This document shows positions 7,195 through 34,572 of a stretch of DNA of 42,655 nt, piece after piece (within the stretch, counting starts at the first letter, position 1; each line of letters starts with the position of its first letter). The stretch comes from a virus: the IMG/VR virus record IMGVR_UViG_3300025070_002720, positions 1 through 42,655 of that record; one strand, written 5' to 3'. A program made the position numbers and the translations under genes. Under the pieces are notes generated by a model, which was given only the letters and a program-made list of their open reading frames with translations, was not told the DNA's origin and made no database searches.

Positions 7195-7195
7195 A

Positions 7196-7717
7196 TTAAA
7201 AGAATTTTTTTAAGTTAGGTCTAAAGTAATTAATACTTTTCATTACTTTTTTATCTCTTGTTCGATAAACAATGTACCGTCCCTCCTCGATTTTTTCAAA
7301 ATGACAGGCCTCACCTTGTTCCTCAGCTCTTTTGCTGACACTGCGTATGGCCTCTTCTTCAGTTTTACAAGCTTTAGACATATTGCTCGCTTGTACTTCT
7401 TGATATGCTGGCCATATCTTATCCTTAAGGCCGTGTAACATAACACCGTTCCCAAGGGAAACATAAGCAATGTCGCACAAAGCATCCAAAACTTCCACAA
7501 TGTCTCCGTTTTCGCAAGCCTCTCTATACTCTTCGAGCTCTTCAAGGATGAAATCGTAAACGAACTGCCACTCTTTTTTTTCTGGTATGTTTGGTTCATA
7601 ATTATTTGGTTTACTAAAAGTATCGTTAAATATCTCAACTTCATCTACAAAAGGTACTGAAGGAGAAGATGGTACTTTATAATTCTCTTCTACAAAAAGT
7701 GATAACTGTTTTCCCAT
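7196..7717 (-). CDS. MazG/HisE-like all-alpha NTP pyrophosphohydrolase domain protein
   Basis: A 173-residue protein with the all-alpha NTP-PPase signature. FILEELEEYREA (56-67) supplies the first acidic helix (Glu59, Glu60, Glu63) and VEVLDALCDIAYV (74-86) the second metal-binding helix (Glu75, Asp78, Asp82). The C-terminal half carries a KCx2EEEAI-like stretch common in phage members of this family. Such enzymes hydrolyse (d)NTPs or related nucleotides to monophosphates and pyrophosphate. The middle of the gene (7261-7560) is about 43% GC by hand count, clearly above its neighbours, with a different codon mix. A long alternate frame exists inside it but is not supported. Confidence 0.78.
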   Translation of the reverse strand: MGKQLSLFVEENYKVPSSPSVPFVDEVEIFNDTFSKPNNYEPNIPEKKEWQFVYDFILEELEEYREACENGDIVEVLDALCDIAYVSLGNGVMLHGLKDKIWPAYQEVQASNMSKACKTEEEAIRSVSKRAEEQGEACHFEKIEEGRYIVYRTRDKKVMKSINYFRPNLKKFF

Positions 7718-7718
7718 T

Positions 7719-7922
7719 TTAATATACTTTAATTATTCTAGATTCTGCAAGGCTTATAATCTTAAAACTAGTTTCACCTAACTCCTCTAGCATTTTATAC
7801 GTTTTAGCTTCTGCTTCTGTTCCAGTCATAGCATCTACTAAATATATTTCTTTTACTTTCTGTACTCTACCTCTATCGTTTTCTCTTTCGAACTGGGTAG
7901 TAACTTGCCAATAGTTTGTCAT
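7719..7922 (-). CDS. DUF4494-like small protein
   Basis: A 67-residue protein reading MTNYWQVTTQFER, a G-R-V-Q-K-V-K-E-I-Y-L-V-D-A segment, then EAEAKTYKML. This pattern (a short strand, then KGRVKxxxExYLVDAxxxxEAE) is what I recall for DUF4494, a small family found in Bacteroidota genomes and their phages. Function is unknown. It supports the host guess. Spacing to the MazG-like gene is one base, so it belongs to the same operon. Confidence 0.65.
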   Translation of the reverse strand: MTNYWQVTTQFERENDRGRVQKVKEIYLVDAMTGTEAEAKTYKMLEELGETSFKIISLAESRIIKVY

Positions 7923-7936
7923 AATTATATTATTTA

Positions 7937-8650
7937 TTAATGTTTACAAATACTTGCTAATTCTATATTCTTATAGAACTCTGCTTTTGCTGAATCTTCG
8001 TTTAAGAACGCTCCTGTTAGTTTAGCAGTTTGCATTGATGCTCCTCTATGCTTAACTCCTCTACAGCTAACACAGTTATGGGTAGCTGATATCATTACTG
8101 CAACTCCTAAATTACCTTCACATATCTTATCTACTGCATTATGTATAGCTACAGTTAATTGTTCTTGAATAGCTCCTCTTCTACCGAATTGTTCTACTAT
8201 CCTATTAAGTTTAGATAGTCCTACTACTTTTCCATCCTCTGAAGCTATATAAGCAATGCTTACATTACCACCGATTGTTTGGTGATGATGTGAACACATC
8301 GACTGAACTGGTATATTGCTTTCTTGTACTATACCGTCGTATCCGTCTGATGGAAATGCTGTTATACGGTCTAGAGGGTTATACCTTCCGGCCCATAAAT
8401 CATTAACATATGCTTTAGCTACTCTCATTGGGGTATCAGATGAATTAGGATCATCTTTATAATCACATCCTAACGCAGTTAAAAACTCTGCGTATGCTTT
8501 TGCTGCTCTTTCTATAATTACATGCTTCTCATGTTCTGTTAACCTTGCTTCAGGTCCTTCTAATTCTTGCTTTGCAGCTAATTGACTTGATATACCATTT
8601 GCATATCCTGCTTTTACTAATTCTGTTCCGTCTATAAACTTTTTAGGCAT
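7937..8650 (-). CDS. folE: FolE, GTP cyclohydrolase I
   Basis: Converts GTP to 7,8-dihydroneopterin triphosphate, the first step of 7-deazaguanine (and folate) synthesis. The 237-residue protein carries the zinc site MCSHHH (Cys119, His122) and THNCVSCRG (Cys193). It also has the family's GKVVGLSKLNRIVEQFGRR-type block (140-158) and QEQLT (162-166). All catalytic landmarks are present. The N-terminal 40 residues are family-typical variable sequence. It is expressed from a separate leader (8651-8714) that holds a promoter-like element. With QueD, QueE, QueC and QueF it completes preQ1 synthesis from GTP. It could also raise the tetrahydropterin pool that feeds the formyl donor for the DpdN step. 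Confidence 0.96.
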   Translation of the reverse strand: MPKKFIDGTELVKAGYANGISSQLAAKQELEGPEARLTEHEKHVIIERAAKAYAEFLTALGCDYKDDPNSSDTPMRVAKAYVNDLWAGRYNPLDRITAFPSDGYDGIVQESNIPVQSMCSHHHQTIGGNVSIAYIASEDGKVVGLSKLNRIVEQFGRRGAIQEQLTVAIHNAVDKICEGNLGVAVMISATHNCVSCRGVKHRGASMQTAKLTGAFLNEDSAKAEFYKNIELASICKH

Positions 8651-8672
8651 AATATTTAATTTGTTTTATTGA

Positions 8673-8707
8673 GGTTCTACGACTCATTTGTTAATACAAT
8701 ATACGAT
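8673..8707 (-). promoter_or_regulatory. Two-part leader element upstream of folE
   Basis: On the minus strand ATCGTATATTG (8697-8707) is followed by GTCGTAGAACC (8673-8683), then about 22 bases to the ATG. A near copy with both parts lies at 10993-11036 upstream of the gene at 10975; the second parts match at 10 of 11 positions. The first part resembles the TTC(T/G)TATATTA element. A promoter or leader-control site is inferred. Confidence 0.45.
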
Positions 8708-8714
8708 TTTTAAT

Positions 8715-9119
8715 TTAATTATCCAAATAATCTTGAATAGGTTTTGAATTTTCTTTTTCCCAAGGGTAGACTACCCAGCCGAAATCATCGTCTATTTCTT
8801 CTGCATAGTATTCTGGTTTTGCTTTTGATGATGTTTTATAGTGTAGAGTAGCAAACTTAGGATTAAACATTTCGTCTCTCCACTTTAAAATTGTATCTCC
8901 ACTATCTGCTATATCATCTATAATTAATAACCTAGGATAGTGGTTACTTCTATACTCCATATATGGAATCTCAAATCGATGAGAATACATAATAGCGAGT
9001 ATGGTACCTCCTCTGGGTATTCCTGTTACATAGTCTATCTCTCCTTTGCATTTTTCGTGTATAATATCTAAGAGTCTATTGATATCGTCCCACGTTAGAA
9101 AAACTTTTTTTACTGCCAT
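8715..9119 (-). CDS. Phosphoribosyltransferase (xanthine/guanine type)
   Basis: A 134-residue type I phosphoribosyltransferase. The PRPP-binding loop LLIIDDIADSGDTI spans 64-77, VTGIPRGG (31-38) is the pyrophosphate-binding element, and WVVYPWE near the C-terminus resembles the base-contacting tail of small Gpt-like enzymes. It would turn a free purine base plus PRPP into a nucleotide. In a phage whose DpdA releases free guanine from DNA, salvage of that guanine to GMP is a plausible job, but this is inference. The gene sits between folE and queE and overlaps the end of the small gene upstream by 10 bases. Confidence 0.85.
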   Translation of the reverse strand: MAVKKVFLTWDDINRLLDIIHEKCKGEIDYVTGIPRGGTILAIMYSHRFEIPYMEYRSNHYPRLLIIDDIADSGDTILKWRDEMFNPKFATLHYKTSSKAKPEYYAEEIDDDFGWVVYPWEKENSKPIQDYLDN

Positions 9120-9283
9120 GTATGGTTCATTACCCAGTTACCAGTAGAGTAATTTGCTATAGATTTACTACCTACCGATTGTAGCTTCTCTTTTAAGTGG
9201 TCCCATTGTTGAGGAGTAATATTGTAATGGTGAACTCCTTCTGTGAAGCCTCGTAACCATTCTATAAATTGTGATTCATTCAT
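9110..9283 (-). CDS. Small phage protein (WLRGFTEG...QWDHLKEKL type)
   Basis: A 57-residue protein translated by hand: it starts MNESQFIEWLRGFTEG, continues with a PQQWDHLKEKL helix and ends NWVMNHTWQ. This pattern (a Trp-rich short helix, then an xPxQWxxLKxKL helix) recurs in small phage proteins of unknown function. Its ATG overlaps the stop of the preceding gene (ATGAATGA arrangement), and its own stop lies inside the phosphoribosyltransferase gene, which supports it as a real coupled gene. Confidence 0.7.
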   Translation of the reverse strand: MNESQFIEWLRGFTEGVHHYNITPQQWDHLKEKLQSVGSKSIANYSTGNWVMNHTWQ

Positions 9284-9410
9284 TTTCTATATAACTTTTT
9301 AATTTATCTATTAATACTAATACTTCGTCTGGTTCCATTGTTATAGCACAGCAAGTATTTATGTTTTCTGCTACTTCCTCTAATACCTCTAAAGCTTCAT
9401 CTTTAGTCAT
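9276..9410 (-). CDS. Small acidic hypothetical protein
   Basis: A 44-residue acidic helical protein (MTKDEALEVLEEVAENINTC and on), translated by hand. Its ATG shares one base with the queE stop (TAATG), and its stop overlaps the next small gene. Gap-free packing between queE and the phosphoribosyltransferase supports translation. Family and function are unknown. The two cysteines in tandem (TCCAIT) are the only distinctive feature. Confidence 0.6.
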   Translation of the reverse strand: MTKDEALEVLEEVAENINTCCAITMEPDEVLVLIDKLKSYIENE

Positions 9411-10198
9411 TATACCTCTCTTTGATCTTCAAAAGCAATAATATGAGGTCTCCAAGTCATTCTATATCCGTTATCTCTAACCCAATCAAATAATACTGGG
9501 TATGATTTAAATAATGCTTCTCTAGAATCTCCTGCAGGCATAAACCATACTTTTTCAGATTTAACATCCAAAGTTTTTATACAGTCCATTATTTCAGCTA
9601 ATGCTTCTTGATCTTTACCGTCCCATACTGGTTTAATATGGAAATCAGAATGATACTCTATTGACTGCTTAATTGCCTCATAATTAAGTCTAAATTTATT
9701 ATGACGTTTTACCATTCTCTCATCTGTAATTGCACCTTGAGGAGTTTCTACTCCAACGACTGGAACAGAATTAGAAAACTTAGGGCTAATAGATAACAAA
9801 TTAATAGGGTAATCTGTGGGTAGGAAATGACTACCTTCAGTTTCGATAGTAATAAAGATATTATTTTCATGTGCAAAATGTGTTAATTCGTTTACTAAAG
9901 CTGGATGCATAGTAGGAGAACCTCCTGTCAACATCATCTCTTTTATATGAGGATTCTTTTCGTACATCGCAATTATATCTTTAAAATTGAAGTCTCCTTT
10001 TTCCGGGTGTATACTTGTATACCAACTATCACACCATCCTCCTTCTCCGAAGTAACATCTATGGGTACATCCTGTAGTTCTTATTACAACTGTTGGGTAA
10101 CCTGCTCTTGAACCTTCTGATTGTACTGCTGTATATATTTCTACGATAGGTAGGTTTTTATCGTAATCTTCTATTCTCTTTAATTGCTTGTGTGCCAT
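9410..10198 (-). CDS. queE: QueE, 7-carboxy-7-deazaguanine synthase (radical SAM), unusual CX3CX7C cluster
   Basis: Radical SAM enzyme converting 6-carboxy-tetrahydropterin to 7-carboxy-7-deazaguanine (CDG). Family landmarks in the 262 residues are the QSEGSRAG segment (26-33), RTTGCTHRC (40-48), TGGSPTMHP (91-99, the SAM-binding GGE-type motif with Ser for Glu) and IETEGS. The [4Fe-4S] cysteines are Cys44, Cys48 and Cys56, giving CX3CX7C where the classical radical SAM motif is CX3CX2C. The loop insert is YFGEGGW. QueE enzymes with enlarged cluster loops are known, so function is likely kept. It sits between queD and the small 9410 gene, sharing a TAATG junction with the latter. Confidence 0.93.
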   Translation of the reverse strand: MAHKQLKRIEDYDKNLPIVEIYTAVQSEGSRAGYPTVVIRTTGCTHRCYFGEGGWCDSWYTSIHPEKGDFNFKDIIAMYEKNPHIKEMMLTGGSPTMHPALVNELTHFAHENNIFITIETEGSHFLPTDYPINLLSISPKFSNSVPVVGVETPQGAITDERMVKRHNKFRLNYEAIKQSIEYHSDFHIKPVWDGKDQEALAEIMDCIKTLDVKSEKVWFMPAGDSREALFKSYPVLFDWVRDNGYRMTWRPHIIAFEDQREV

Positions 10199-10218
10199 AT
10201 ATTTTTATTATATTAATA

Positions 10219-10707
10219 CTACTCCTCGTAGATTGATGAATTTTTATCTGCTTCCCAACATTCAACTTTGGTAACTTTTACTCTACCTCCTCCAGTTAGT
10301 TCCATTCTTTTGTTAAAATGATCAAATACTAATTTAGCACAAGATTCTGCTCCCATTGAATCCATAACCCTTAAAGCACATAGTCCTAATTCCTCCATGT
10401 ATTGGAAAGTTTCTAATTGAGGATCATCTTTTTCTATTAGTAGAGTGTGATCCCACATATGGTTCATCCAATCTTTTAAACCATTACCGGGTGTTGGTTC
10501 AGCATCAGTTGATTTAAACCCTCCGTAATCCATAATCCAATTCATCTCATCTAATTGATTTTCTTCTAGTGGTTCTTTAGATTCAAACCATACTTTAAAT
10601 TTTAAAGCATATCCGTGAAGTAATTCACAATGTGAGTGTGCAGCTTTATGCTGTCTTAGTGCTACTGAGTAATTATCAAATAGCTTTGTTGATTTGTATG
10701 TTCCCAT
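10219..10707 (-). CDS. queD: QueD-like 6-carboxy-5,6,7,8-tetrahydropterin synthase
   Basis: Converts dihydroneopterin triphosphate to 6-carboxytetrahydropterin for QueE. The 162-residue protein shows the fold's marks: AAH (His24), CELLHGY (catalytic Cys27, His31), MDYGGFK (59-65), WDHTLLIEKDDP and a C-terminal VECWEA with the substrate-binding Glu. It is longer than the ~120-residue bacterial form. The zinc-binding HGH reads HGY (Tyr33), and the loop between AAH and the Cys is very short. His26 might take the third-ligand place. Position right next to queE, 20 bases apart, supports the assignment. Confidence 0.9.
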   Translation of the reverse strand: MGTYKSTKLFDNYSVALRQHKAAHSHCELLHGYALKFKVWFESKEPLEENQLDEMNWIMDYGGFKSTDAEPTPGNGLKDWMNHMWDHTLLIEKDDPQLETFQYMEELGLCALRVMDSMGAESCAKLVFDHFNKRMELTGGGRVKVTKVECWEADKNSSIYEE

Positions 10708-10717
10708 AATTTTTATT

Positions 10718-10975
10718 TTAAACTAATTCTTCTCCTATTCCTACTATTTCTGATAGTATAAGCAAAATAGCAGCTATATCTATACTCCACCATAATGCAG
10801 CATACCCTAATATACGGATACCTGATTTGATGAAGCTAATTTGTTGATGTAATTTTGGATCCGGAATTTTATGATCATTGATCTTAATTCCTGTAAATTC
10901 TTTACCTGTAGAATACGAACCTTCTCTGTCGTAAAGTTCGTCTAGGATTTCTTTTTCTTCTTTTCTTTTTATCAT
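10718..10975 (-). CDS. Small membrane protein
   Basis: An 85-residue protein with a charged N-terminal half (KRKEEKEILDELYDREGS) and one strong hydrophobic segment at about 53-78 (IRILGYAALWWSIDIAAILL). A single-pass inner-membrane protein with the N-terminus inside is likely. I recognise no family. It is the first gene behind the two-part leader element at 10993-11036 and precedes queD by 10 bases. Confidence 0.65.
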   Translation of the reverse strand: MIKRKEEKEILDELYDREGSYSTGKEFTGIKINDHKIPDPKLHQQISFIKSGIRILGYAALWWSIDIAAILLILSEIVGIGEELV

Positions 10976-10992
10976 ATTCGTGTTTTTATAGT

Positions 10993-11036
10993 GGTGCTAC
11001 GACACTGTTGTGCTATATATTTATACAATATACGAA
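10993..11036 (-). promoter_or_regulatory. Two-part leader element, second copy
   Basis: Minus-strand TTCGTATATTG (11026-11036) and GTCGTAGCACC (10993-11003), upstream of the ATG at 10975. Both parts repeat at 8673-8707 ahead of folE, but the spacer is 22 bases here and 13 there. Shared by two leaders within the 7-deazaguanine region, it may drive that operon's subunits. Confidence 0.45.
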
Positions 11037-11040
11037 ACTT

Positions 11041-11715
11041 TTATTTAAGAACCAACATTTTTTCATGTCCTATTATTAAAGTTGGATCGACATATATATC
11101 GTAACCTTTTTTTGTTATCATTCTACAGAATGCTACATCTTCCATAGTAAATTCTTTAAATGAAGTATCTCCTACCTTAAATTCTTCCCAAAGAGGTTGA
11201 AACCATGGATACTCTAGTGATTCAAATACACCTTTTTTAATTAATACCCAACCAAACCCAGTATACTCTACTTTAAATGGTTTAGTTCTTTTATTTATTA
11301 ACTTATCATCTAAAAATTCAAAAGAACCATTCTTTGCATAGTGCTCTTTGTCCCATTTTTCCACTGTAGCGTAGTTGGTATTGTTCTGAGTTTTGTATAT
11401 TCCGGAAGCAATATCTTTATTCATGTTAAGTAACTTAATAAAGTCATTAACTTCAAATACCATATCTGAATCTATCCACATTATGTAATCGTAATCTATT
11501 TGACCATCGAACGGCATTTGGTTTTTACCTCTAACTGATGCTCCTCCTAAACATTGATTTCTAACGTAGTATAGTAGTGGACTATAACTATTTGACAGAA
11601 TTGGAGTAATTCCATACTTGGGTAAGTATTGTAGAAGATTACTCCAACTAGTCAAAAAATTATTTGAAAAAGTTCGTCCCGGTAGACAAAATACTATTTT
11701 TAATTGTTTTTGCAA
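11041..11715 (-). CDS. GT-A type glycosyltransferase (GT2-like)
   Basis: A 224-residue nucleotide-sugar-dependent transferase. It opens with a beta-strand (LKIVFCLPGRTFS) and has the metal-binding DXD in YIMWIDSDMVF (Asp82, Asp84). It continues with an ASGIYKT-type strand, a GFGWVLIKKGVFESL acceptor-site segment and an EDVAFCRMITKKGY motif, as in GT2 enzymes. The acceptor is unknown: DNA, lipopolysaccharide or a protein. Its place inside the 7-deazaguanine module, between queC and queD, makes a sugar-decorated base conceivable, but that is speculation. It starts 18 bases after the small gene at 11734. Confidence 0.8.
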   Translation of the reverse strand: MQKQLKIVFCLPGRTFSNNFLTSWSNLLQYLPKYGITPILSNSYSPLLYYVRNQCLGGASVRGKNQMPFDGQIDYDYIMWIDSDMVFEVNDFIKLLNMNKDIASGIYKTQNNTNYATVEKWDKEHYAKNGSFEFLDDKLINKRTKPFKVEYTGFGWVLIKKGVFESLEYPWFQPLWEEFKVGDTSFKEFTMEDVAFCRMITKKGYDIYVDPTLIIGHEKMLVLK

Positions 11716-11733
11716 ATTTATATTTTTAGTATT

Positions 11734-11877
11734 TTAAATATTACGGTGTCTTCTCATACCGTCCCATTTCACTTTTTTTGTTTTACTCAACATCCTTAAT
11801 TTATCTATACGATTATTAAGTTTATTCCTTTCAGAATTTAATTGAGTATTTCCGTTTGTTTGATCACTAATTGCCAT
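11734..11877 (-). CDS. Small basic hypothetical protein
   Basis: A 47-residue basic protein translated by hand (MAISDQTNGNTQLNSERNKL, then a Lys/Arg-rich tail ending RRHRNI). It starts 11 bases inside the 3' end of queC and fills the gap before the glycosyltransferase gene. The central helix looks like a short nucleic-acid-binding coil. No family is recognised. Compact overlap favours a real gene. Confidence 0.5.
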   Translation of the reverse strand: MAISDQTNGNTQLNSERNKLNNRIDKLRMLSKTKKVKWDGMRRHRNI

Positions 11878-12688
11878 AACCTGCGAGTACTTTTTCAACA
11901 TGAGCTTTTGCAACTTGGTAACTAACTACACCTGTTTCATCAGCATATCCAACAGGATCAGGTCTACCTAATTTAATAAAAGCCTCAATACGTTCTACTG
12001 ATGAAGCTGATTTATAATCACTATACCATTCCCAAGCATTTGCTTCAGGTCTGCTGTAAACTTTCATTGGTTTATAAGAGGTATTTGTTCTTCTATACAC
12101 CTCGTCAAAGTCTAAATCTAGTACCTCACATAAATTTAATCCATCTTGTAAGATACCAAACTTATCAGTATCTAAATAAGGAGTAAAGTAACCTACTCTA
12201 TCAGCATCCCAATTCCCCATTCTAAAAGCTGCATCATCTGCATCTCTAAATTCCTGTCTGCAATCAGGGTAAACTGCATGATCACCAGCATGAATACCTA
12301 AAGCAATATCACAAACACCTTCTGTTTTATTTGCTACAGATAATGCTACTGCTTGTGTAATTGAAGCAAACATTTTATTTCTATTAGGAACAACAGTTTC
12401 TTTCATATTCTCTTGCTCGTAATGTCCTTCTGGTACATCATCTCCGCCTTCTACTAAAGCTGAATCTAGTAAATCTACTAAACCATCTAATTTAATTTGA
12501 CGATAATTTACTTTGTGACCTTTACTTGCAAGGTAATCAATTAATGATTGAGCTCTTTCTAGCTCTACTTTATGTTTTTGACCGTAGTCAAATGAGATAC
12601 CTGTTACTGTATCATACTTCTCGATAGCTCTTAACAATAGGGTGCTGCTATCCATTCCACCACTTAAACTTACTACACAATGTGCCAT
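11867..12688 (-). CDS. queC: QueC-like preQ0 synthase lacking the zinc-binding cysteines
   Basis: ATP-dependent conversion of CDG to preQ0. The 273-residue protein has an intact PP-loop SGGMDSS (9-15), SFDYGQKHKVELERA (32-46), VVPNRNKMF (99-107) and the IALGIHAGDHAVYPDCR block (128-144). Canonical QueC has a C-terminal zinc site of four cysteines (SCY ... CGxCxSC). Here the matching region reads TNTSYKPM (201-208) and YKSASSVERIEAF (225-237): every zinc cysteine is replaced, by Ser, Asp or similar. The flanking ERIEAF and GRPDPVGY blocks are conserved, so this is substitution, not truncation. It is the most upstream gene of the pathway in transcription order. QueC identity is sure, but the zinc-free state is unusual. 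Confidence 0.92.
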   Translation of the reverse strand: MAHCVVSLSGGMDSSTLLLRAIEKYDTVTGISFDYGQKHKVELERAQSLIDYLASKGHKVNYRQIKLDGLVDLLDSALVEGGDDVPEGHYEQENMKETVVPNRNKMFASITQAVALSVANKTEGVCDIALGIHAGDHAVYPDCRQEFRDADDAAFRMGNWDADRVGYFTPYLDTDKFGILQDGLNLCEVLDLDFDEVYRRTNTSYKPMKVYSRPEANAWEWYSDYKSASSVERIEAFIKLGRPDPVGYADETGVVSYQVAKAHVEKVLAGYGN

Positions 12689-16154: not shown

Positions 16155-17513
16155 TTATTCATTATTACTTTGTTCTACACTAAAAAATTTCTTTGCAAGC
16201 TCTTTATGGGTAGAAGTAACGCCATTAGCATTAGGCTCTAGATCTTCCATATCAGCTTTTCCTTCGAATTCAATATGTCCATTATTAGTATCCATCTTAA
16301 GGTTATACGTCATCCCGTCCATACCGTATCTATTTTTCATAACATGCCATCGACCTGTACCTAGCACTTTATCTTCTTTCATTCTAGATAAAGAGAAACA
16401 CATATCTGCTACCATCATTTTATCATACGAACCAGCAGCTTTATCTCCTTCAATTACAGAATCCTTAGCACCCATTCTATTTACTTGAGAAGGAGTAATT
16501 ACTGGTATCTGGAATTCTTTAGCTAATCCTTTAGTAGCGATAAATACATCGTCAATTTCATCTTTACGTTCTGAGAATTTACCTTTAGAGGGAGCTCTTA
16601 AATAATCAACATAATCAATAACAATTAAATCTGGTTTATGTTCCATATCTATACATTTCTGTATATGAGATTTTATAGTATTAACAGTTGCTCCTTTAGG
16701 TGGATATTCTTTTACTATAAGTTTACCTTTCAAGCCGTCAACTTTTTTCTGTACGTCTTTTCTATGGCTATTTACCTCATCTATAGAGTAACCTGTAAAG
16801 TAACAATCAAATCGTTTACCGACATAATCTTCTCCTAATTCTAAAGTATAATAATTAACGTTATAACCCATCTTTACTGCATGAGCAGCCATTGCTACAC
16901 AAGTCCAACTTTTTCCACCTCCTGGGTTACCAAATACAATAGCTAAATCTCCTGGTCCAAAACCACCTTGTATACCTTCGTTAAGAACCGGCCAAGGAGT
17001 AGGTATAGTTGGTCTATAGTTCTCTCTATATCTACTTTCTATATCCTTATTATACTCATGTCCAATATTTTTATCCATACCAGCTTTCATAGCTTTCTCT
17101 ACTACATTTCTGATACCGTCAAAATCACCTTCTTTAAGTAAATCAGCAGAATTAAGTATTGCTGCTTTCATTTCTTGATTCTTACAGAAGTTAGTAAACT
17201 CTTCTTGAACGTACTCTAAATCATCTTGGGAAGCAGCATAAGAATTTCTCAATTCCTCTTTTAATGCTACTTGAAGGATGTCGTTATCTAGTTTTTGAAG
17301 CTCTACTTTCAAAACATCCATAGTCACAGTAGTGTGGTAATTATCGAAATATCTCATAATTTCGTTAATAATCCACTTATGTGCATCTGAATCGAAGTAG
17401 TCTTCAGTTAAAACATCTCTTACGTTTAATAAGAACGTTTTATCTGTCAATAATGACCCTAAAACTTTTAATTGAAACCCCTTTCCGTATTGTTGTAAAC
17501 TCTTTAATGTCAT
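16155..17513 (-). CDS. Replicative DNA helicase, DnaB/gp41-like
   Basis: A 452-residue hexameric-helicase type RecA-fold protein. It has an N-terminal helical domain (about 1-150) with a long coiled segment, then Walker A GNPGGGKS (195-202). The YYTLEL catalytic-Glu strand, Walker B LIVIDYVDYL and the H3-type VITPSQVNRMGAKDS segment follow as in DnaB/gp41. It would unwind DNA 5'-3' ahead of the polymerase. No primase was seen in the window. It begins behind an ATAAAGGTTATAAT leader and is the last gene of the replication block. Confidence 0.92.
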   Translation of the reverse strand: MTLKSLQQYGKGFQLKVLGSLLTDKTFLLNVRDVLTEDYFDSDAHKWIINEIMRYFDNYHTTVTMDVLKVELQKLDNDILQVALKEELRNSYAASQDDLEYVQEEFTNFCKNQEMKAAILNSADLLKEGDFDGIRNVVEKAMKAGMDKNIGHEYNKDIESRYRENYRPTIPTPWPVLNEGIQGGFGPGDLAIVFGNPGGGKSWTCVAMAAHAVKMGYNVNYYTLELGEDYVGKRFDCYFTGYSIDEVNSHRKDVQKKVDGLKGKLIVKEYPPKGATVNTIKSHIQKCIDMEHKPDLIVIDYVDYLRAPSKGKFSERKDEIDDVFIATKGLAKEFQIPVITPSQVNRMGAKDSVIEGDKAAGSYDKMMVADMCFSLSRMKEDKVLGTGRWHVMKNRYGMDGMTYNLKMDTNNGHIEFEGKADMEDLEPNANGVTSTHKELAKKFFSVEQSNNE

Positions 17514-17593: not shown

Positions 17594-18622
17594 TTATTTT
17601 ACTGTTGTAAGCCCTCTAAAGTTCTCCAACCATCCTTCGGTATTTTTTGTAATACCTTCAATTTTATCCTGCTCTAACTGCCTTAGAAAAGCACCTGTTT
17701 GCAAGTCCGGAAGTGATGCTCTAAGAACATCCATAACATACTCTTTCTCTTTATCGTCTAAATCAGAGACATTCAAGTCCATAAGTTTAAAGTTGGTTTC
17801 AACTCTATCCCATTCCGTTATTATCTTAGGAAATATTTTCTTAAACTTTTTCTCTTCTAATTTTTCAGCACATATATCGTATACGTACTCTAGACTCATA
17901 TTAGGTTCTTTAGCTAGTTTCGGAAACTCTGAAAGTATAGTTTTTATACCTAATCCTTTTACTCCTGCTAAATTATCGGAATTATCCCCTAATAACGCTT
18001 TAACTATGTTGTAATTCTCTGGTAATACCTTAAGTTCATCAAATATATTACTCTCAGTAAAGGTTTTCTTTTTTATTGGTGCATATACTTCTACAGTATC
18101 GTCCACTAACTGCAAAAAATCCTTATCTGATGAAATAATCGTACACTTTTTGACATTACTTACTGAAGCTCTTTTGGCAATATATGCTATTATATCGTCT
18201 GCTTCTAATTTCTCCATCATTAACTGTTGTACTGGTAGACAGTCTAGATAGTCTTGCGTTCTATGCAATTGTCCTATAAGAGCTTCCATTTCCTCCTGTT
18301 TACTGTCGTAAAGTCCCCAGTGTGTTATTCTACTGGTTGCTCTTTGAGCTTTGTAATTAGGGTCAATGTTCTTTCTATTAGCAGAACCTCCTTTACCGTC
18401 CCAAACTATAATTACTCTGGTAGGGTCAAATATTCTGGTAACATACCCTAAAGAGCGAAGGAAGCCCACCAGGCCTCCGATATGTGCGCCTGATGGGTTC
18501 ATCGCCTTGAGAAGAGAGAAACTACGAATTAACATATTCATAGCATCTACGATCAAGATATGATCGTTCAACTCACGGGGTGGGGTCTCTTTTAAATTGT
18601 TAAGTATGTTTTCGTATGCCAT
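17594..18622 (-). CDS. 5'-3' exonuclease / RNase H (T4 rnh / FEN family)
   Basis: A 342-residue structure-specific 5' nuclease for removing primers and flaps. Landmarks are IVDAMNMLIRSF (24-35, metal Asp26), VIIVWDGKGG with NYKAQR after it, LEADDIIAYIAKR, IISSDKDFLQL, and the helix-three-turn GDNSDNLAGVKGLGIKTI segment that binds DNA. All metal-binding aspartates are there. It begins with a TAATG overlap on the recA-like gene. The 5' part (about 18420-18600) is roughly 44% GC by hand count, richer than the rest, with codons unlike the neighbours. Confidence 0.93.
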   Translation of the reverse strand: MAYENILNNLKETPPRELNDHILIVDAMNMLIRSFSLLKAMNPSGAHIGGLVGFLRSLGYVTRIFDPTRVIIVWDGKGGSANRKNIDPNYKAQRATSRITHWGLYDSKQEEMEALIGQLHRTQDYLDCLPVQQLMMEKLEADDIIAYIAKRASVSNVKKCTIISSDKDFLQLVDDTVEVYAPIKKKTFTESNIFDELKVLPENYNIVKALLGDNSDNLAGVKGLGIKTILSEFPKLAKEPNMSLEYVYDICAEKLEEKKFKKIFPKIITEWDRVETNFKLMDLNVSDLDDKEKEYVMDVLRASLPDLQTGAFLRQLEQDKIEGITKNTEGWLENFRGLTTVK

Positions 18623-19695
18623 TAATCTAGTAAATTAGGAGATATTGGTGTTTCTTCTAAATCTCCTTCTTCAATAAGATCAAAGTCTACAGATCCAACT
18701 AATTTTAGCCAGTGAGCTTTATGAGCATCTCTATACTTATCAATTGCTTTCTTATCATCTTCAATAAAGCCGTGTTGAGTCATTACAATTCTACCTCTAG
18801 ATTGTACTCCTCCGATATGGTTTTTCTCTACTTGAACGTTAGTACGTTTAGCAAACTCAACTTGCATACCATTTTTAATTGCTTTAATTTTAGAAGTTCC
18901 TGGATTGGTGATATTACCAAAAGTAATTACTAGAGTAGCATCGTACCACATAGACATACCTCCTTTATTTTGCAATTTAGGTTGTCCCATAGGGTGTTCT
19001 GGTTTCATAGTCCAGACTTTATTAATAGCTACCATAGTATTTGTATATGGTGAATTCTCTTTTCTAGATAATAGAATCTTTTGGTTAAGATTATTACCAA
19101 ATTGAGTAGACATCGCACCAGCATTCCATTCGTTGTTATTCTTATTAGAACGTACTGATAAGTCACAAGGTACAGATCCGATACTATCCCAGAAGAAACA
19201 CATATCATAAGGTAAGTTACCTTTAGCTTGTTCGTCCATAAGATCAGCAATATAAACTGCTACATCTTCGATAGTATTTAATTGACCTCTATCTGCATAT
19301 AGAAAATGTCCTTCGTAATCCGTAACATTGCCTTGCTCGTCTTTAGTTTCTTCAAACTGTAAGCCCATTTCTTTAGCATGATCCCAAGACCATTTCATCT
19401 CCGTAATGATGAAGACAGGCAGTATACCCATTTTTTGGGCATTGACTGCTGCTTCAATTAGAGCTGTTGTTTTTCCAGTATCACTATGTCCTCTCAGAAG
19501 AGTTATGTGACCAGTTGGAATACCGGGAAGAGAGGTAATGTCTTGAAAAGCTTTAGATAAAGGAATCCATCCTTGTTCTTTAAACTTTACGGAAGCATTC
19601 GAAAAACCTTTTTTCTTTTTAAAATTTCCTAAATTAAACGACTTCTGTACAGCAGCAGTCGCTCTTGCTTTTACTTCTTCTTTCTTTTTTGCCAT
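18622..19695 (-). CDS. RecA/UvsX-like recombinase
   Basis: A 357-residue strand-exchange ATPase. A Lys-rich N-terminus precedes the core; Walker A is GHSDTGKT (69-76), followed by the PVFIITEMKWSWD-type catalytic-Glu strand and Walker B MCFFWDSIGSV. DNA-binding loops follow in the GAMSTQFG/NLNQK and WTMKPEHPMGQPK stretches. The C-terminus is acidic (DLEETPISPNLLD). It matches the phage UvsX type more than bacterial RecA. It sits between the SSB and exonuclease genes, which fits a recombination-dependent replication set. Confidence 0.93.
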   Translation of the reverse strand: MAKKKEEVKARATAAVQKSFNLGNFKKKKGFSNASVKFKEQGWIPLSKAFQDITSLPGIPTGHITLLRGHSDTGKTTALIEAAVNAQKMGILPVFIITEMKWSWDHAKEMGLQFEETKDEQGNVTDYEGHFLYADRGQLNTIEDVAVYIADLMDEQAKGNLPYDMCFFWDSIGSVPCDLSVRSNKNNNEWNAGAMSTQFGNNLNQKILLSRKENSPYTNTMVAINKVWTMKPEHPMGQPKLQNKGGMSMWYDATLVITFGNITNPGTSKIKAIKNGMQVEFAKRTNVQVEKNHIGGVQSRGRIVMTQHGFIEDDKKAIDKYRDAHKAHWLKLVGSVDFDLIEEGDLEETPISPNLLD

Positions 19696-19697
19696 GT

Positions 19698-20495
19698 TTA
19701 TTCGTTAAATAGATCATCAAATTTACTTACTGTGTCTTTGTTGCCAGCCGTAGCTGTTTCCAAAGTAAAGTCCGTTTTTTGTTGACCTAAGCTTTCTGGC
19801 AGTTTATCTTTAGCAGGTGTTTCAGTCGTTTCGTCTCCTGAACCTGGGTTTAGATAATTTTGAAGTTGTTTTTTAATAAAGTCATAATCATATTGACTAT
19901 GTACCTCTACTGGGTTAGGTTGAGTTTTTAACCAAGTATCCACTAAATCGTTATTATCTGATAAAGGAGTTTGTTTAGGTTTAATTCTAACTGTAGTTTC
20001 AGGGTAAGGGTTACCTTGAGCTTGTTCAACTACCATATCCCATCCGTTGATTACATCTGTAAAATCTCCGATGTCTTCATCTTCTGCTAAAGCTAATAAA
20101 GCTTTATAAATAGTAATTCCGAATCCCCAAAGTCGAACTCCTTTGTCCTCCTCTCCTCTAACGATTACTGGGGCAAATATCCTAGTTTTAGGACTGATTT
20201 TCCCTGATAGAGACCAGTTATCTTTATCATTCGTTTTTCTTAACTCTTTAACAAACTCTTCAATAGGGTCTTGCTTACCAAAGTTAGATAGTGCTACCAT
20301 CGGATACTTTCCGATTCCGTAGTGAAATTTCAATTCCTTAAAAGGAAATGCAGGGTCAAAAGCAGACGGTACAATACGTAACGTTTGTTTGCCCAGTTGT
20401 GGTTTCCAAAAAATCTTGGAGTAGTCAGTCTTTTCTCTATCCTGACCGTTGTTGTTTAAGGCATCTAGTTTAGCCTTGATTGCATTAATATCCAT
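19698..20495 (-). CDS. Single-stranded DNA-binding protein, gp32-like
   Basis: A 265-residue protein in the T4 gp32 pattern. A short basic N-terminus (INAIKAKLDALNN) leads to an OB-type core with IFWKPQLGKQTLRIVPSA, FKELKFHYGIGK and RLWGFGITIYKALLALAEDEDIGDFTDVINGWDM in separate strands and helices. It ends in a long acidic low-complexity tail finishing DDLFNE, which normally binds partner proteins. The T4 gp32 zinc site (His-Cys3) is not present. Order SSB, recA, exonuclease, helicase is a compact replication operon. Confidence 0.88.
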   Translation of the reverse strand: MDINAIKAKLDALNNNGQDREKTDYSKIFWKPQLGKQTLRIVPSAFDPAFPFKELKFHYGIGKYPMVALSNFGKQDPIEEFVKELRKTNDKDNWSLSGKISPKTRIFAPVIVRGEEDKGVRLWGFGITIYKALLALAEDEDIGDFTDVINGWDMVVEQAQGNPYPETTVRIKPKQTPLSDNNDLVDTWLKTQPNPVEVHSQYDYDFIKKQLQNYLNPGSGDETTETPAKDKLPESLGQQKTDFTLETATAGNKDTVSKFDDLFNE

Positions 20496-20526: not shown

Positions 20527-20537
20527 TAATATAAGAA
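20527..20537 (-). promoter_or_regulatory. Putative promoter element ahead of the SSB gene
   Basis: Exact minus-strand TTCTTATATTA, 32 bases upstream of the ATG at 20495, preceded by a T-run. It is the same 11-mer as at 2115, 5628, 22365 and 34562. This would start the ssb-recA-exonuclease-helicase transcript. Confidence 0.5.
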
Positions 20538-20544
20538 TAAAAAA

Positions 20545-21000
20545 TCAATTATCCAACTCTATTATGTTAAATAATTTAGTATTTATCCTTTTTAATTCTG
20601 GTCCTTTGGTTAAAAGTACACAGTTTCTGTAATCCGCCCAATTTATTCTGTAAGAAGAGTCAAGCTGTCCGCCATTGAGCTGTTTTATGAGTGTATTAAG
20701 AGCATTGATTGTGTAGAGGGTATTTGTTTCTTTCTTTCTATGAACTAAGATAGTATTATCTAAGAAAGCTGAGACATTACCGAAATCAACGTTATAAGTA
20801 CATATATATTCATCTTGACTTTTAGAATAAAGTACAAAGATCTTATTATATATAATCTTATATCTTTCCTGTATTGAAGTAAGGACGTTTTCTAAATTCT
20901 CTTGGGTCGAAAACGTACAGAACAATTTGTTACTCATATCACCACTTAAAAAAATGTCGTCGAAATCATAATCGACTGAAAAATCCGTATCTACTCGCAT
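20545..21000 (-). CDS. Hypothetical protein in replication block
   Basis: A 151-residue soluble alpha/beta protein (starts MRVDTDFSVDYDFDD, acidic N-terminus). No nucleotide-binding or nuclease motif is visible. A LYTINALNTLIKQLNGG stretch and a final LKRINTKLFNIIELDN stretch look like ordered helix-strand structure. Being between the second polymerase-like gene and ssb suggests a replication-linked role, but nothing in the sequence proves it. Confidence 0.6.
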   Translation of the reverse strand: MRVDTDFSVDYDFDDIFLSGDMSNKLFCTFSTQENLENVLTSIQERYKIIYNKIFVLYSKSQDEYICTYNVDFGNVSAFLDNTILVHRKKETNTLYTINALNTLIKQLNGGQLDSSYRINWADYRNCVLLTKGPELKRINTKLFNIIELDN

Positions 21001-21021: not shown

Positions 21022-22347
21022 CTACAAAACTAAATTTTTATTGTACTTAAATTTAACTGGATATTTTTTACCGCTTTCTAATATATCTTTCAGTTCATTT
21101 AAAGTCTCTTTGCCGTCTTCTTTACTAAAATCAAATAAGATAGCATCATATGTATAAAGCGATATTTTAGTCTTTTTATTTCTTAAGTATCGCAGTACTT
21201 CTTTCAATATAAGAATATTATTTGAGGTTTCCAACGATTGCATCATATAATTCATTAGCTTAGCTGGATGAGTGTCTTTAAGGTTGGTAGTAAACGGTTT
21301 TCCAGATTGAGGATTACTCACTACTCCTATTTCTTTATAGACTGCCCACATATTATCAATATATTCCTGTATTAATTTAAATATTTTTAAATTTTTATGT
21401 TCTTCTGGTATTTTACCGTATATGGCTTGAAAATTAATTTGTTTAGCTTCAATATACTGTTCATCTGTAATATCTTCAGTTCCAAAGTAATGTTTTGCTA
21501 GTTGCTTATGAGCAGACTCAGGGGTAAGTTCATATCCAATCTGATTACAAAGTAACCTAAGGTGATAACCATCAAAATCAAACTCAACAAAGTAATCATT
21601 GGTCGGGTGGAAACAGTTTCGATGCTGCTCACTTTTAGGTATAGCAGCGAAATTAACGCTGTTGAAAGCATTAGTAGGTCTAGAAGTTGCATTATATAAA
21701 TTATAAAAGGTTAAAACTTTATTGTTCTCAATATTGTATACGGGATCTCTTGGAGTAAAGTTCTCCAGGAATTTATCATAATCTATTCCAATTCCATGTT
21801 GCTCTAATAAGAAAAACACATTAGTTGCTATAGAGTTATAAAAATCAAATCCAGCAGGGATTTCAATATCTAATACAGTACTTACCGCTTCATATGCTTT
21901 TTCACAAACTTCGAAATGTTTAGATATAGGTATTAGTTTATTAATATGTGGAAACTCTCTGAATTTATTATAAAAATAATTAACTGTGGAATTAGTTTTA
22001 GTTATGTCCAATCTTTCGTATTTTACCATACTATAGACTAAAGATATATCTATTGCTCCCTGTAAATTAAAATGATAGAGTAATTTTTTCTTATCTAATG
22101 TATATAGTTTATTGCATTTAGAAAGAATATCGTAGATACGTTGTTTATCTACATTAATACATTCTTCGTGGTCTATAGGAATTATATAGCCGTGTTGACT
22201 TTTTAGTATTCTTATATAGACTGCTACTGTAGTTGTTAATTTAGGGTGATAAAGATCGTGTGTAGGTATAATATCTACATAGCAGCCAAGCCTCATTAGC
22301 TTTTCTAAGCGTTCTAACTTATAAGATTCTTCAACTATATAAAACAT
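21022..22347 (-). CDS. Minimal family-A DNA polymerase-like protein
   Basis: A 441-residue protein whose C-terminal 220 residues follow the PolA palm/fingers order. ATSRPTNAFNSVNFAAIP (220-237) matches the T-x-R-x-S-x-x-x-N-x-x-x-IP block. Motif A is EFDFDGYHLRLL (catalytic Asp257, with His262 where the steric-gate Glu normally is). Motif B is AKQINFQAIYG (Lys302, Phe306, Tyr310, but the usual Arg four before Lys is Tyr298). Motif C is YTYDAILF (Asp401, with YDA for HDE). Thus both catalytic Asp positions remain but several supporting residues are changed. The N-terminal 200 residues show no exonuclease acids. It could be a specialised primer/gap polymerase or a non-catalytic partner of the main enzyme. 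It heads the replication block. Confidence 0.85.
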   Translation of the reverse strand: MFYIVEESYKLERLEKLMRLGCYVDIIPTHDLYHPKLTTTVAVYIRILKSQHGYIIPIDHEECINVDKQRIYDILSKCNKLYTLDKKKLLYHFNLQGAIDISLVYSMVKYERLDITKTNSTVNYFYNKFREFPHINKLIPISKHFEVCEKAYEAVSTVLDIEIPAGFDFYNSIATNVFFLLEQHGIGIDYDKFLENFTPRDPVYNIENNKVLTFYNLYNATSRPTNAFNSVNFAAIPKSEQHRNCFHPTNDYFVEFDFDGYHLRLLCNQIGYELTPESAHKQLAKHYFGTEDITDEQYIEAKQINFQAIYGKIPEEHKNLKIFKLIQEYIDNMWAVYKEIGVVSNPQSGKPFTTNLKDTHPAKLMNYMMQSLETSNNILILKEVLRYLRNKKTKISLYTYDAILFDFSKEDGKETLNELKDILESGKKYPVKFKYNKNLVL

Positions 22348-22364
22348 TATTATAACCTTTTATA

Positions 22365-22375
22365 TAATATAAGAA
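22365..22375 (-). promoter_or_regulatory. Putative promoter element ahead of the replication block
   Basis: Minus-strand TTCTTATATTA with a preceding T-run, 17 bases before the ATG at 22347, followed by TATAAAAGGTTATAATA. The element plus AAAGGTTAT leader is almost the same as at 5611. It lies at the border between tail and replication modules, where a new transcript is expected. Confidence 0.55.
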
Positions 22376-22394: not shown

Positions 22395-23225
22395 CTAATA
22401 ATAATTATTTGCTGAATTACTTGTTAAATTGCTGTTGCCCATTGATTGATTGTCAGGGTCATTCATTACTTCATCAAAGGATTGGTTTAATCCGCCGCCG
22501 CCTCCACCGGTTGATCCTCCACCAGATGGAGAATTAGATTGTGAGATAGGGAGAGCTGGTGTATTATCTACAGGCTCTGGTCTTAGGAATGCTCTTGGTT
22601 TAACTTTTGGAGGTCTCTGTATGTTAGGTCTCTGTTGCTTAATTATTCTGATCTTCTCTTTTTTAGGTAAATCTTCAAATTTAAATCCTTTTACATCAGA
22701 TTCTATATTAACGAATTTATCATACTCTGTAATATATGTATCTAACCCTGTGATATTAAAAGATATTTCTTTTGTGTTTGCTTTATTTCTAGTTATTGCT
22801 CCTTTATATAAATAACCTTGGTTAAATATATCTTTTGCTGGTTTAGTTAAAATCCATTTCAATACATCTCCTTTGTAGTATTTCTTTTTAATTAGTTTTG
22901 TATAGTTAACTTTTTTTACTTCTATAATTTTACCTGTTGTAAAGTTTTTAAGAAAGTATCTAAACATGAATCCTCTATTATAATCTTCAGGAGTAGGGAA
23001 TACTGTTTCAGACTCAAAAGGAATTGTTTTCTTTCCATTAAAGATAATATCATTGTTATCTACTGAAATTAATTCTAAACCGGTATCTGTAGGAGATTCA
23101 CCTGCATATAACTTACCGGTATTTGTTTCAACATATGGACCTTGGTACTCTTGTCCAGTCCCTTTGAATGCAAACATTCCTAGTTTAGCAAATTTTAACA
23201 GGTATTTAAATACAGGTAGCCACAT
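22395..23225 (-). CDS. Probable baseplate/virion protein with Gly/Pro-rich tail
   Basis: A 276-residue protein. The N-terminal stretch (WLPVFKYLLKFAKLGMFAFKG) is hydrophobic and amphipathic. The middle is beta-rich with an FPTPEDYNRGFMFRYFLK stretch. Residues from about 190 are Pro/Arg-rich, then a low-complexity Ser/Gly linker (GGGSTGGGGGG) and an Asn/Ser-rich end. This is a structure-type protein, probably part of the baseplate because it directly follows the hub gene with a one-base overlap. No family is recognised. Confidence 0.6.
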   Translation of the reverse strand: MWLPVFKYLLKFAKLGMFAFKGTGQEYQGPYVETNTGKLYAGESPTDTGLELISVDNNDIIFNGKKTIPFESETVFPTPEDYNRGFMFRYFLKNFTTGKIIEVKKVNYTKLIKKKYYKGDVLKWILTKPAKDIFNQGYLYKGAITRNKANTKEISFNITGLDTYITEYDKFVNIESDVKGFKFEDLPKKEKIRIIKQQRPNIQRPPKVKPRAFLRPEPVDNTPALPISQSNSPSGGGSTGGGGGGLNQSFDEVMNDPDNQSMGNSNLTSNSANNYY

Positions 23226-26170
23226 TATACGATATCTTTATCAAAGTTATTCCAATTTACAGAAGCCCAATATGTTTTTAGTCTATCAAAAATTATTGGA
23301 GATCTTGGTTTATCATAATTAGCCATAGTTTCTTGATCTACTCTTTGGTTCTCTGTATCTACATGCCAAATATGCCATTCTTCAAGAGCAGCTTGTACCA
23401 TAGCAGTTATGTTTACAGCTGCTTTAGGTCTTAATACTATTACCATACCGTTTCCGTAATTTCCGTTTGAATCAGCTTTAAAGAATTTTTTCTTTACTGT
23501 GTGTATCACATTACCTCCGATTGCATGAAACTTTCTGTCTCCAATTTGTGATACATACGTAACCAAATCCCCATGAGATTTTCCGCCCCATCTAGAAGAA
23601 TTAAAGTTTAAAGTATTACCTGCTCTTCCTTTTATTATAATATCACCTACCTGAGGTTTAGTAGACTTTGCTGGTAGAGCTGTCCAATTAGCAGCACTTC
23701 TTGCTCCTTGTGCATACTTAGTATGTGCTGGAGCTTTAGGGAATGATGGGTCTCCTTTAAGCGCTACGTAGGATATAAATGCTGCACTCCAAGGAGTATT
23801 AGTAGGGGTTGTAACACCACTTCGTGTTTTATACTTAGGTCTATAATTTACATTGGTAGTATCCGGTACCGGTCTTTCTTTTACTATTGGTTTTGGAGCA
23901 GTAGGGTCTGTTGATGCTAACATAAACATTCTAGTAGTTATACTAGTCTCCCACCTACTATCATTACCTATTTCTTGTTCTATTTGAGTTACTATAAAAC
24001 CAACTTTACCATCGTACCTACTAGGCAGGATTCCTTTATTAACTTGAAATGATTCTCCAACTCTTAAGTTCGTTATTCCATCTGTACTGAAGGAAAGCTC
24101 TATTGGTATTAAACCAGAAAAACCAGCTGGCTTTTTCTTTCTTCGTTTTTCATCTTGTTCTATCGCATGTCTTATTGTTGAATACTTTTGATAATCAATC
24201 GTATTATCTAAAAATTTACTTCTATCGTAATGTCCTTGAGCATAACTTGAAAATGTTCCGCCAATCTTAGCAATAATTTCCTCTAATGATTTATTTTCTT
24301 CTTCTATCTTTTCTTTTATTAAGTTAGGGTTAGTAATAGAGTATCTGTTATAAAGATTTTTGTTAAATTGAAGTAAATTAGTATGTTTACGTTTAACAGT
24401 GTCTGATATTGTAGCGTTTAAAGATAAAGTGCTAACGATAGCACTAGAGATTTTAGAACTAATCTGTACTTTAGTAATAGACGATCCTGTTCCGGCTATG
24501 TTAAGAGTAGGTGCTGTTTTAACTGTTTGTTCAACAGGTATCGCTCTGTCCACAACACTCCATTCTTTATCATCCTCATCGTAATGTAAATCAAAGGAGT
24601 TAATACCTCCCATTGCTGTTTCACAGTCATTTAGAACCTGCTGTATTAAGGTAAATACTGATGTGGATGCTTTAGTATCTTCTTTATTTGCATCAAGAAA
24701 ACCGTTCTGTATCTCTAATAAATGATTTATATTTAAGCATATAGCTCCAGGGGACCTTGGGTCATAAGCGTCACCGTATTTTTCTTTTTGTTTTTTATGT
24801 GCTTCTTCAAATACTTTTGGAGGTAGTCCCCCGTGTGTAGAGTGGTTATCGAAAAAACTATTTCGCCAGTACCATTCATCAGAATTAAGATACCAAGCTT
24901 TTCCTGGGCCAATGTATGGGAGAAAACACACGCCAGGGTCTATAGACATATGTTCATGATAAGTACAGAACTGTTGTTTTGAATACGTAGTAGATAAATT
25001 AAAAGGTTTTCCGTCTTTCTCATCACCTCTTTGTAGAAATACTTTATCTAATAAGTCCATAAAGTCTCTTAATGAAATATACCAGTGGTAATTTTTGGAT
25101 TTATCCGAATTATCATCTTCATCTGCTTCTCCTTCTTCTTTATCTGCTTTTAATTCTACTGATCTATAGATTTCTATACCGTATGTTTTTTGTAGTTGTG
25201 CTTTAATGTATTCACTACTATACATACATGCTTGGAGTAAAGAGGATATAGCATCATTCACATCTGCCCCGGATTTTGTCTTAGACCCTGCAGTGTTATT
25301 TTTTTTAGCTATTTTTTTAAACTCTGCACCGTTTGCTGTGTATATAGTGGATTCTAAAGATTCCATAAGTTCCCCTTTAGAAATAAGAACTAATTTACAA
25401 TCGTAACTACCATCATTACCGTAGTCCCAAGAAAAATTAGTTACTTTAGCAAATAATGCTTCATAGTTACCGCCTGTTTTTAGTTTATATTCTTGCGCTT
25501 TATCCTGTGTTTTTAAAAGCTCTTCTCCTTTCAAGAACTTTTTTGAAACAGAGCGAGTACGGCTTTGTACTTCTCCATCTTCATCTATATAAGCGTTTGC
25601 TCCGTATTCAACTAAAACATCAAATCCAGGTTTAAAGTACAACTTATCTATAATATTTAAATCTTCTAATGTATTAACCTTTATATCTATATCTATCTGT
25701 TTTAGTGCACCATAGGTACTTTTAGAAGCTACTTTAAAGGAAGTTATTCCTGGCATAGACCTAAAACCTCTTTCTGAATTGGAGTAACTACTAGCTTTTT
25801 CGTCTACTAGATTTAACCCATCTTTCATATATGTTCGAAGTGGCTTTTCAGGGTCCATTTCTTGCCTTAGTACACCACCGCTAAGAACAAAATTTACGGC
25901 ATCGTCTGATCCTTTAGATCTAAATGTTGATAATGCATCTTGTGAAGCTTTTACGTCTTTTCCGTATACCTTCTCTTGAAGCTCTTTAAATTCTGCACCT
26001 AAAATTTCGTTTACGCCGGAAGTTATTTTTACCCACCCTCCTCTATTATTAAGTAAAGAGGTTTCTTCTACTGATCTGCTTTCTTTGGAGAGTAGTTCTT
26101 GCCTTAGTTTGAGTTGGTTAGCTGCTTCTTTATTTAAAGGGCCTCCGAATATTAATTTACTTTCTGCCAT
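23225..26170 (-). CDS. Large baseplate hub protein with DUF2272-like cell-wall domain
   Basis: A 981-residue tail protein. The first ~780 residues have the long beta-rich, insertion-rich look of a central hub/spike adaptor (T4 gp27-like role), including a VLVEYGANAYIDEDGEV segment and a GFIVTQIEQEIGNDSRWET stretch. The C-terminal ~150 residues resemble DUF2272 (NlpC/P60-like fold): PWSAAFISYV (Trp794), AHTKYAQ, KSHGDLVTYV (His866) and AIGGNVIHTV. Such a domain would open host peptidoglycan during infection. The position of the usual NlpC cysteine is Ala, as I recall for DUF2272 too, so catalysis is not proven. It is flanked by the LysM-like wedge gene and the 22395 baseplate gene. Confidence 0.82.
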   Translation of the reverse strand: MAESKLIFGGPLNKEAANQLKLRQELLSKESRSVEETSLLNNRGGWVKITSGVNEILGAEFKELQEKVYGKDVKASQDALSTFRSKGSDDAVNFVLSGGVLRQEMDPEKPLRTYMKDGLNLVDEKASSYSNSERGFRSMPGITSFKVASKSTYGALKQIDIDIKVNTLEDLNIIDKLYFKPGFDVLVEYGANAYIDEDGEVQSRTRSVSKKFLKGEELLKTQDKAQEYKLKTGGNYEALFAKVTNFSWDYGNDGSYDCKLVLISKGELMESLESTIYTANGAEFKKIAKKNNTAGSKTKSGADVNDAISSLLQACMYSSEYIKAQLQKTYGIEIYRSVELKADKEEGEADEDDNSDKSKNYHWYISLRDFMDLLDKVFLQRGDEKDGKPFNLSTTYSKQQFCTYHEHMSIDPGVCFLPYIGPGKAWYLNSDEWYWRNSFFDNHSTHGGLPPKVFEEAHKKQKEKYGDAYDPRSPGAICLNINHLLEIQNGFLDANKEDTKASTSVFTLIQQVLNDCETAMGGINSFDLHYDEDDKEWSVVDRAIPVEQTVKTAPTLNIAGTGSSITKVQISSKISSAIVSTLSLNATISDTVKRKHTNLLQFNKNLYNRYSITNPNLIKEKIEEENKSLEEIIAKIGGTFSSYAQGHYDRSKFLDNTIDYQKYSTIRHAIEQDEKRRKKKPAGFSGLIPIELSFSTDGITNLRVGESFQVNKGILPSRYDGKVGFIVTQIEQEIGNDSRWETSITTRMFMLASTDPTAPKPIVKERPVPDTTNVNYRPKYKTRSGVTTPTNTPWSAAFISYVALKGDPSFPKAPAHTKYAQGARSAANWTALPAKSTKPQVGDIIIKGRAGNTLNFNSSRWGGKSHGDLVTYVSQIGDRKFHAIGGNVIHTVKKKFFKADSNGNYGNGMVIVLRPKAAVNITAMVQAALEEWHIWHVDTENQRVDQETMANYDKPRSPIIFDRLKTYWASVNWNNFDKDIV

Positions 26171-34561: not shown

Positions 34562-34572
34562 TAATATAAGAA
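34562..34572 (-). promoter_or_regulatory. Putative promoter element ahead of the coiled-coil gene
   Basis: Exact minus-strand TTCTTATATTA, 36 bases before the ATG at 34526. Same 11-mer as at 2115, 5628, 20527 and 22365. Confidence 0.5.

Follow-up and report, generated by a model that had tools for sequence, protein, structure and literature searches.

A divergent family-A DNA polymerase, divPolA1, was described in 14 phages in a study of DNA polymerase swapping in Caudoviricetes bacteriophages (Virol J 2024, PMC11348598), the text of which reports a truncated thumb, an inactivated exonuclease and conserved palm residues. According to the same text, divPolA1 phages (among which the Flavobacterium immuto phages are named) also encode a regular DNA polymerase of family A, B or C and share a conserved replication neighbourhood. 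It further describes divPolA2 of barbaviruses, which is likewise a second divergent PolA beside a regular DNA polymerase and, by that description (on which alone the two are compared here), carries a novel N-terminal globular domain in a variable neighbourhood. TV-Pol, which is likewise a minimal family-A relative that lacks a nuclease, is encoded by viruses and mobile elements; its published account (PMC2579912) gives it a thumb of two helices, RxxxK in the fingers and a link to D5 helicases, and it has been proposed to make primers. The literature matching "divPolA1" (the 2024 article and its preprint) yielded no biochemistry or genetics of any member. The divPolA1 family itself is thus already known; the present analysis adds the strict conservation of its unusual active site and of a small neighbour gene.

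The DNA analysed here (the window) is the 42,655-nucleotide IMG/VR virus record IMGVR_UViG_3300025070_002720, from a marine phage. A first-pass annotation, made from the sequence alone, had placed a 441-residue protein at 21022–22347, and both coordinates and length proved correct upon checking of the ORF. The strand, which had been left unstated, is the minus strand, and stops occur throughout the plus-strand frame. The nearest cultured relative of this protein is that of Flavobacterium phage immuto (MW353175–MW353177), with 59.9% identity across all 441 residues, followed among annotated relatives by an uncultured 484-kb phage and then by Microcystis phage Mel-JY01. Since immuto is a named member, the window protein is a new divPolA1. 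Like the published members, it keeps the catalytic palm aspartates (D257 and D401), has a truncated thumb, and is encoded alongside a regular DNA polymerase and upstream of replication genes; no difference that would exclude membership was found. With Pfam, the window protein matched DNA_pol_A (PF00476) at residues 227–316 (E 4e-7), with no second family up to E 1; its 29.7 bits stay below the curated cut-off of 34.3 bits, which certain relatives exceed, and 48 of 68 divPolA1 members match this family at E 0.01.

An AlphaFold2 model of divPolA1 (mean pLDDT 92.5, pTM 0.90) was aligned with VIA-align to Bst Pol I (model residues 1–441 vs. Bst 300–874; Z 26.6, 410 residues, 4.4 Å) and to Klenow (1kfd; Z 24.8, 427 of 560 residues, 3.8 Å), and its top Foldseek matches were the apicoplast polymerase (E 2.9e-16) and Klenow. 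By its modelled fold, divPolA1 is therefore a family-A polymerase matching Pol I large fragments end to end. The first-pass annotation had proposed a second, minimal family-A polymerase and had named a lack of superposition on the PolA palm as evidence against it; since the model superposes on PolA (Bst, Klenow and apicoplast), this did not occur, and the proposal holds. The spacing between the motifs flanking the thumb is 23 residues in divPolA1 (GIGID to TFYN) vs. 108 in E. coli (GVKID to TSYH), so that the thumb is largely deleted, with about 85 residues missing. Further towards the N-terminus, the alignment of model residues 1–441 to Bst 300–874 puts a domain at the place of the exonuclease. 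The Pfam 3′-5′ exonuclease family finds no match in divPolA1 (it does match the regular PolA of the window), and when the N-terminal half was globally aligned by profile to E. coli Pol I, no credible placement of the exonuclease residues emerged. Judging from the model, divPolA1 most likely retains an exonuclease-like N-terminal domain devoid of a recognisable exonuclease signature.

Active-site residues were assigned by profile alignment to E. coli K-12 Pol I, restricted to the part of divPolA1 from about residue 204. In this alignment, D257, K302, F306, Y310, N366, Q370 and D401 of divPolA1 correspond to D705, K758, F762, Y766, N845, Q849 and D882 of Pol I, respectively, and a TSRP...N..AIP block is present as well, which bears out the previously noted motif-A and motif-C aspartates, fingers residues and TxRxxx...NxxxIP block. 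The canonical motif-A Glu gate, motif-B Arg and HDE motif of family A are replaced by His262 (E710 in Pol I, the steric gate), Tyr298 (R754) and YD[AS] (Y400 for H881 and A402 for E883). These substitutions had also been noted before and are supported by both alignment and conservation. Overall, divPolA1 resembles Pol I large fragments (Klenow, Bst, Taq) and apicoplast PolA in its whole-length fold, its metal-binding aspartates and its equivalents of K758, F762, Y766 and Q849, but differs from them by the loss of some 85 thumb residues and by replacements at four sites (His for Glu710, Tyr for Arg754, Tyr for His881, and Ala or Ser for Glu883). Glu710 and Arg754 of Pol I are important for catalysis and dNTP binding. 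Since every divPolA1 member has His and Tyr in their place, the enzyme might polymerise DNA only weakly or use another substrate. Histidine is not a small residue, and the sugar selectivity of divPolA1 lies beyond any sequence test. The terms "steric" and "histidine" do not occur in the text of PMC11348598, its figures and supplements aside.

Two neighbouring classes were considered and rejected. Membership of TV-Pol is contradicted by a YxxxK motif (Tyr298-xxx-Lys302) instead of RxxxK in 160/160 proteins; further differences from the published description of TV-Pol (PMC2579912) are the cut thumb and the DnaB-like helicase of divPolA1 phages. A T7-like RNA polymerase is contradicted by the missing motif-A gate Gly (DFDGYH here vs. 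DGSCSG in T7 RNAP).

The divPolA1 family is large, with 191 relatives in IMG/VR when queried with the single protein and at least 564 when queried with an alignment, and its length is exactly 441 residues at 73 of 81 loci. In bacterial and archaeal genomes, a relative was found on one contig only, which is part of a MAG. Conservation was scored in 160 distinct proteins (99 close and 61 distant), after removal of 80 of the 240 matches as identical proteins. H262, Y298 and Y400 are invariant in 160/160, as are R223, D257, D259, K302, F306, Y310, G311, Q370 and D401, while position 366 is Asn in 159 and position 402 holds Ala (146 proteins) or Ser (14). The metal-binding aspartate pair and the Lys, Phe, Tyr and Gln substrate residues are thus kept down to about 25–30% identity. 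Moreover, 33 of the 41 invariant columns of a 68-sequence alignment fall within residues 215–401 (Fisher P 2e-7). In the least saturated pairs, the dN/dS of divPolA1 is ~0.12; against the contig of locus L010, it is 0.12, compared with 0.02–0.09 for s151 (a small neighbour gene, see below), gp32, uvsX and the exonuclease, and with a value of 0.26 for the baseplate gene. Because dS exceeds 1 in most pairs, the majority of these ratios are approximate, and the underlying table enters three contigs twice (L010/L101, L013/L102 and L157/L158, the rows of the last pair being identical). The ORF is real and under strong conservation, in a pattern consistent with a functional enzyme whose site has been remodelled, rather than with decay. 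As a separate observation, the baseplate-region protein of the window (981 residues, 23225–26170), which has a C-terminal DUF2272 domain (E 2e-14), evolves fast, with 30% identity to its counterpart at L013, where divPolA1 has 78%.

The regular PolA of the window lies at 1–2091 on the minus strand. The first-pass annotation had reported a full-length PolA with exonuclease elsewhere in the window; a regular PolA with an exonuclease match is indeed present, but it is not full length, as the contig start truncates it before motif C (it spans profile positions 26–285 of 381). A second contig with an identical divPolA1 protein carries the entire regular PolA of 782 residues, with a Glu gate (DYESLEP), VHDQ and, by eye, apparently intact exonuclease motifs. 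Across 12 divPolA1 records, the main polymerase is a regular PolA in 10 and a PolB in 2 (Mel-JY01 and LR756508). The window additionally holds 7-deazaguanine pathway genes at 6179–12688 (FolE, QueD-like, QueE-like radical SAM, QueC and DpdA-like), of which the DpdA-like protein is 75% identical to that of an immuto gene annotated as DpdA.

Downstream of divPolA1, and likewise on the minus strand, follow s151 (20545–21000), a gp32-like single-strand DNA binding protein (19698–20495; Pfam gp32 E 1.4e-10, PHROG 1192), a UvsX-like recombinase (18622–19695; PHROG 97, E 1.6e-15), a 5′-3′ exonuclease (17594–18622; PHROG 107, E 5.8e-36) and a gp41/DnaB-like replicative helicase (16155–17513; PHROG 19, E 5.9e-81). 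Among distinct loci with enough flank, this order is kept in the close set (s151 95/95, gp32 64/64, exonuclease 43/43, gp41 15/15) as well as in the distant set (s151 52/52, gp32 41/44, exonuclease 26/27, gp41 20/21). A uvsX gene was detected by profile in 49/50 close and 1/32 distant loci, the latter figure probably being a failure of the profile, as the annotation of Mel-JY01 has a RecA-like gene at that position. Across 58 distinct close loci, divPolA1 protein distances correlate more closely with those of s151 (0.87), the exonuclease (0.87) and gp32 (0.81) than with those of the adjacent upstream gene (0.48); the value for s151 is no higher than that for the exonuclease.

The small gene s151 adjoins divPolA1 at every locus counted above, and both match an identical set of 6 out of 50,697 phage records. 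A reverse search taking in 80 of the at least 591 s151 relatives recovered divPolA1 on the same strand in 78 of 80 IMG/VR loci, the remaining 2 being too short (i.e., 78/78 testable). In control searches, gp32 matched 26 phage records, the exonuclease 1638 and the upstream gene 4. As the upstream gene likewise occurs in no more than 4 records, all with divPolA1, the s151 co-occurrence is in part a matter of restriction to one lineage: s151 may co-occur merely as a second core gene of one lineage, and co-occurrence is weak evidence of contact. No fused divPolA1-s151 ORF was seen. The s151 structure model is poor (pLDDT 64.4), with a top VIA-align Z of 6.5 against unrelated domains; PHROG matches are weak and spread over 20 families, and a comparison with PDB sequences gave no match. 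From its genomic association, s151 is probably a partner of divPolA1.

A promoter-like motif, TTCTTATATTA, is located on the minus strand 18 bp before the divPolA1 start (22365–22375) and 32 bp before the gp32 start (20527–20537). Allowing up to 1 mismatch, it was found in the 70 bp preceding divPolA1 in 54/95 close loci (always 15–20 bp away from the start codon) and ahead of gp32 in 54/120, vs. 0/123 before s151 and 72/5000 random windows. Its presence before divPolA1 but never before s151 fits a divPolA1-s151 transcription unit. Exact copies in the window (minus strand; 2115–2125, 5628–5638, 20527–20537, 22365–22375 and 34562–34572) stand 17–36 bp before gene starts, including those of the regular PolA, divPolA1 and gp32. 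By its placement, TTCTTATATTA is likely a phage promoter element. Both the strictly co-occurring s151 and this motif are new relative to published divPolA1; the divPolA1 sections of PMC11348598 make no mention of a small partner gene, figures and supplements aside.

As to function, we consider it about an even bet that divPolA1 works within the gp32/UvsX/exonuclease/gp41 module as an active, distributive (i.e., low-processivity) accessory DNA polymerase, used for primer extension or gap filling. In favour of this reading are the fold, the shortened thumb, the invariant catalytic residues, the constant replication neighbours, the varying main polymerase and the separate primase. With its palm and fingers catalytic apparatus retained and most of the thumb lost, such an enzyme would extend either RNA primers that the phage primase makes or the ends of UvsX D-loops, or alternatively fill short gaps left by the 5′-3′ exonuclease, and would then yield to the exchangeable main replicase; s151 may hold it on DNA. 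More speculatively, and with rather long odds, divPolA1 and s151 could form a two-subunit polymerase in which s151 acts as a thumb in trans, the His gate leads to short mixed or RNA-started tracts, and the product is handed over to PolA, PolB or PolC. If true, this would make the pair a phage counterpart of a primer-extending polymerase with an interchangeable replicase.

Among the alternatives, the one that survives best, though still improbable at roughly one chance in a handful, is a translesion or repair polymerase that bypasses damage or stalled ends outside normal replication. The lack of an exonuclease family match and the truncated thumb are in keeping with this role, as are the UvsX and exonuclease neighbours and the presence of a regular polymerase that has an exonuclease. 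However, divPolA1 is found in every lineage locus examined, together with replication genes and under strong purifying selection, and its sequence has no lesion-specific feature.

Less probable again is that divPolA1 starts chains itself, its His gate admitting rNTPs, as proposed for TV-Pol. The Glu-to-His change in 160/160 proteins, the minimal thumb and the location in a replication module would suit a primer-making enzyme, but His is not small and a primase appears to be encoded already. More specifically, a search of 10 divPolA1 records with the Toprim_2 profile pointed to a TOPRIM primase ORF of 306–329 residues in 5, namely every record that reaches 160 kb; the other five, fragments measuring 51–89 kb, gave no match. 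Toprim_2 scored over its cut-off in 4 of these 5 and below it in Mel-JY01, the ORF of which is annotated as DNA primase-like. PF01807 supports the ORF in the same frame in 3/5 (W01, G001 and G002), each time below cut-off, and its match in LR756508 sits elsewhere, in a 27-residue frame. Since every one of these long records has this ORF, we rejected divPolA1 as a replacement for the primase, and the earlier suggestion of a primer-making polymerase is unsupported in that form. As a side observation made by eye, the primase-like ORFs of the PolB phages LR756508 (L088) and Mel-JY01 (L090) have no CxxC...CxxC zinc-ribbon cysteines, with a seemingly intact TOPRIM part, and these cysteines are kept in the PolA phages L089, L091 and L092.

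An ex-polymerase retained as a non-catalytic subunit for DNA binding or docking seems slightly less probable still. The altered gate, motif-B Arg and HDE motif and the small size could be read in that way, but the metal-binding aspartates and the Lys, Phe, Tyr and Gln substrate residues are invariant even among the most divergent members, and the invariant columns cluster around the active site. Because this invariance extends across 160 proteins, the inactive subunit entertained in the first-pass annotation is unlikely. Finally, its suggestion of a polymerase adapted to a 7-deazaguanine DNA template can practically be set aside: QueC is present in 10/12 divPolA1 records, but Mel-JY01 and LR756508 carry divPolA1 and lack both QueC (2/12) and the DpdA-like gene (2/6), which leaves such adaptation unsupported.

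Returning to the accessory polymerase that we favour, a second polymerase retained in the core replication operon of phages that exchange their main replicase points to a replication step that these phages may be unable to drop. The invariant His gate and Tyr-for-Arg replacement offer a natural test of sugar choice and dNTP binding in family A, and s151 provides a concrete candidate for a partner gene.
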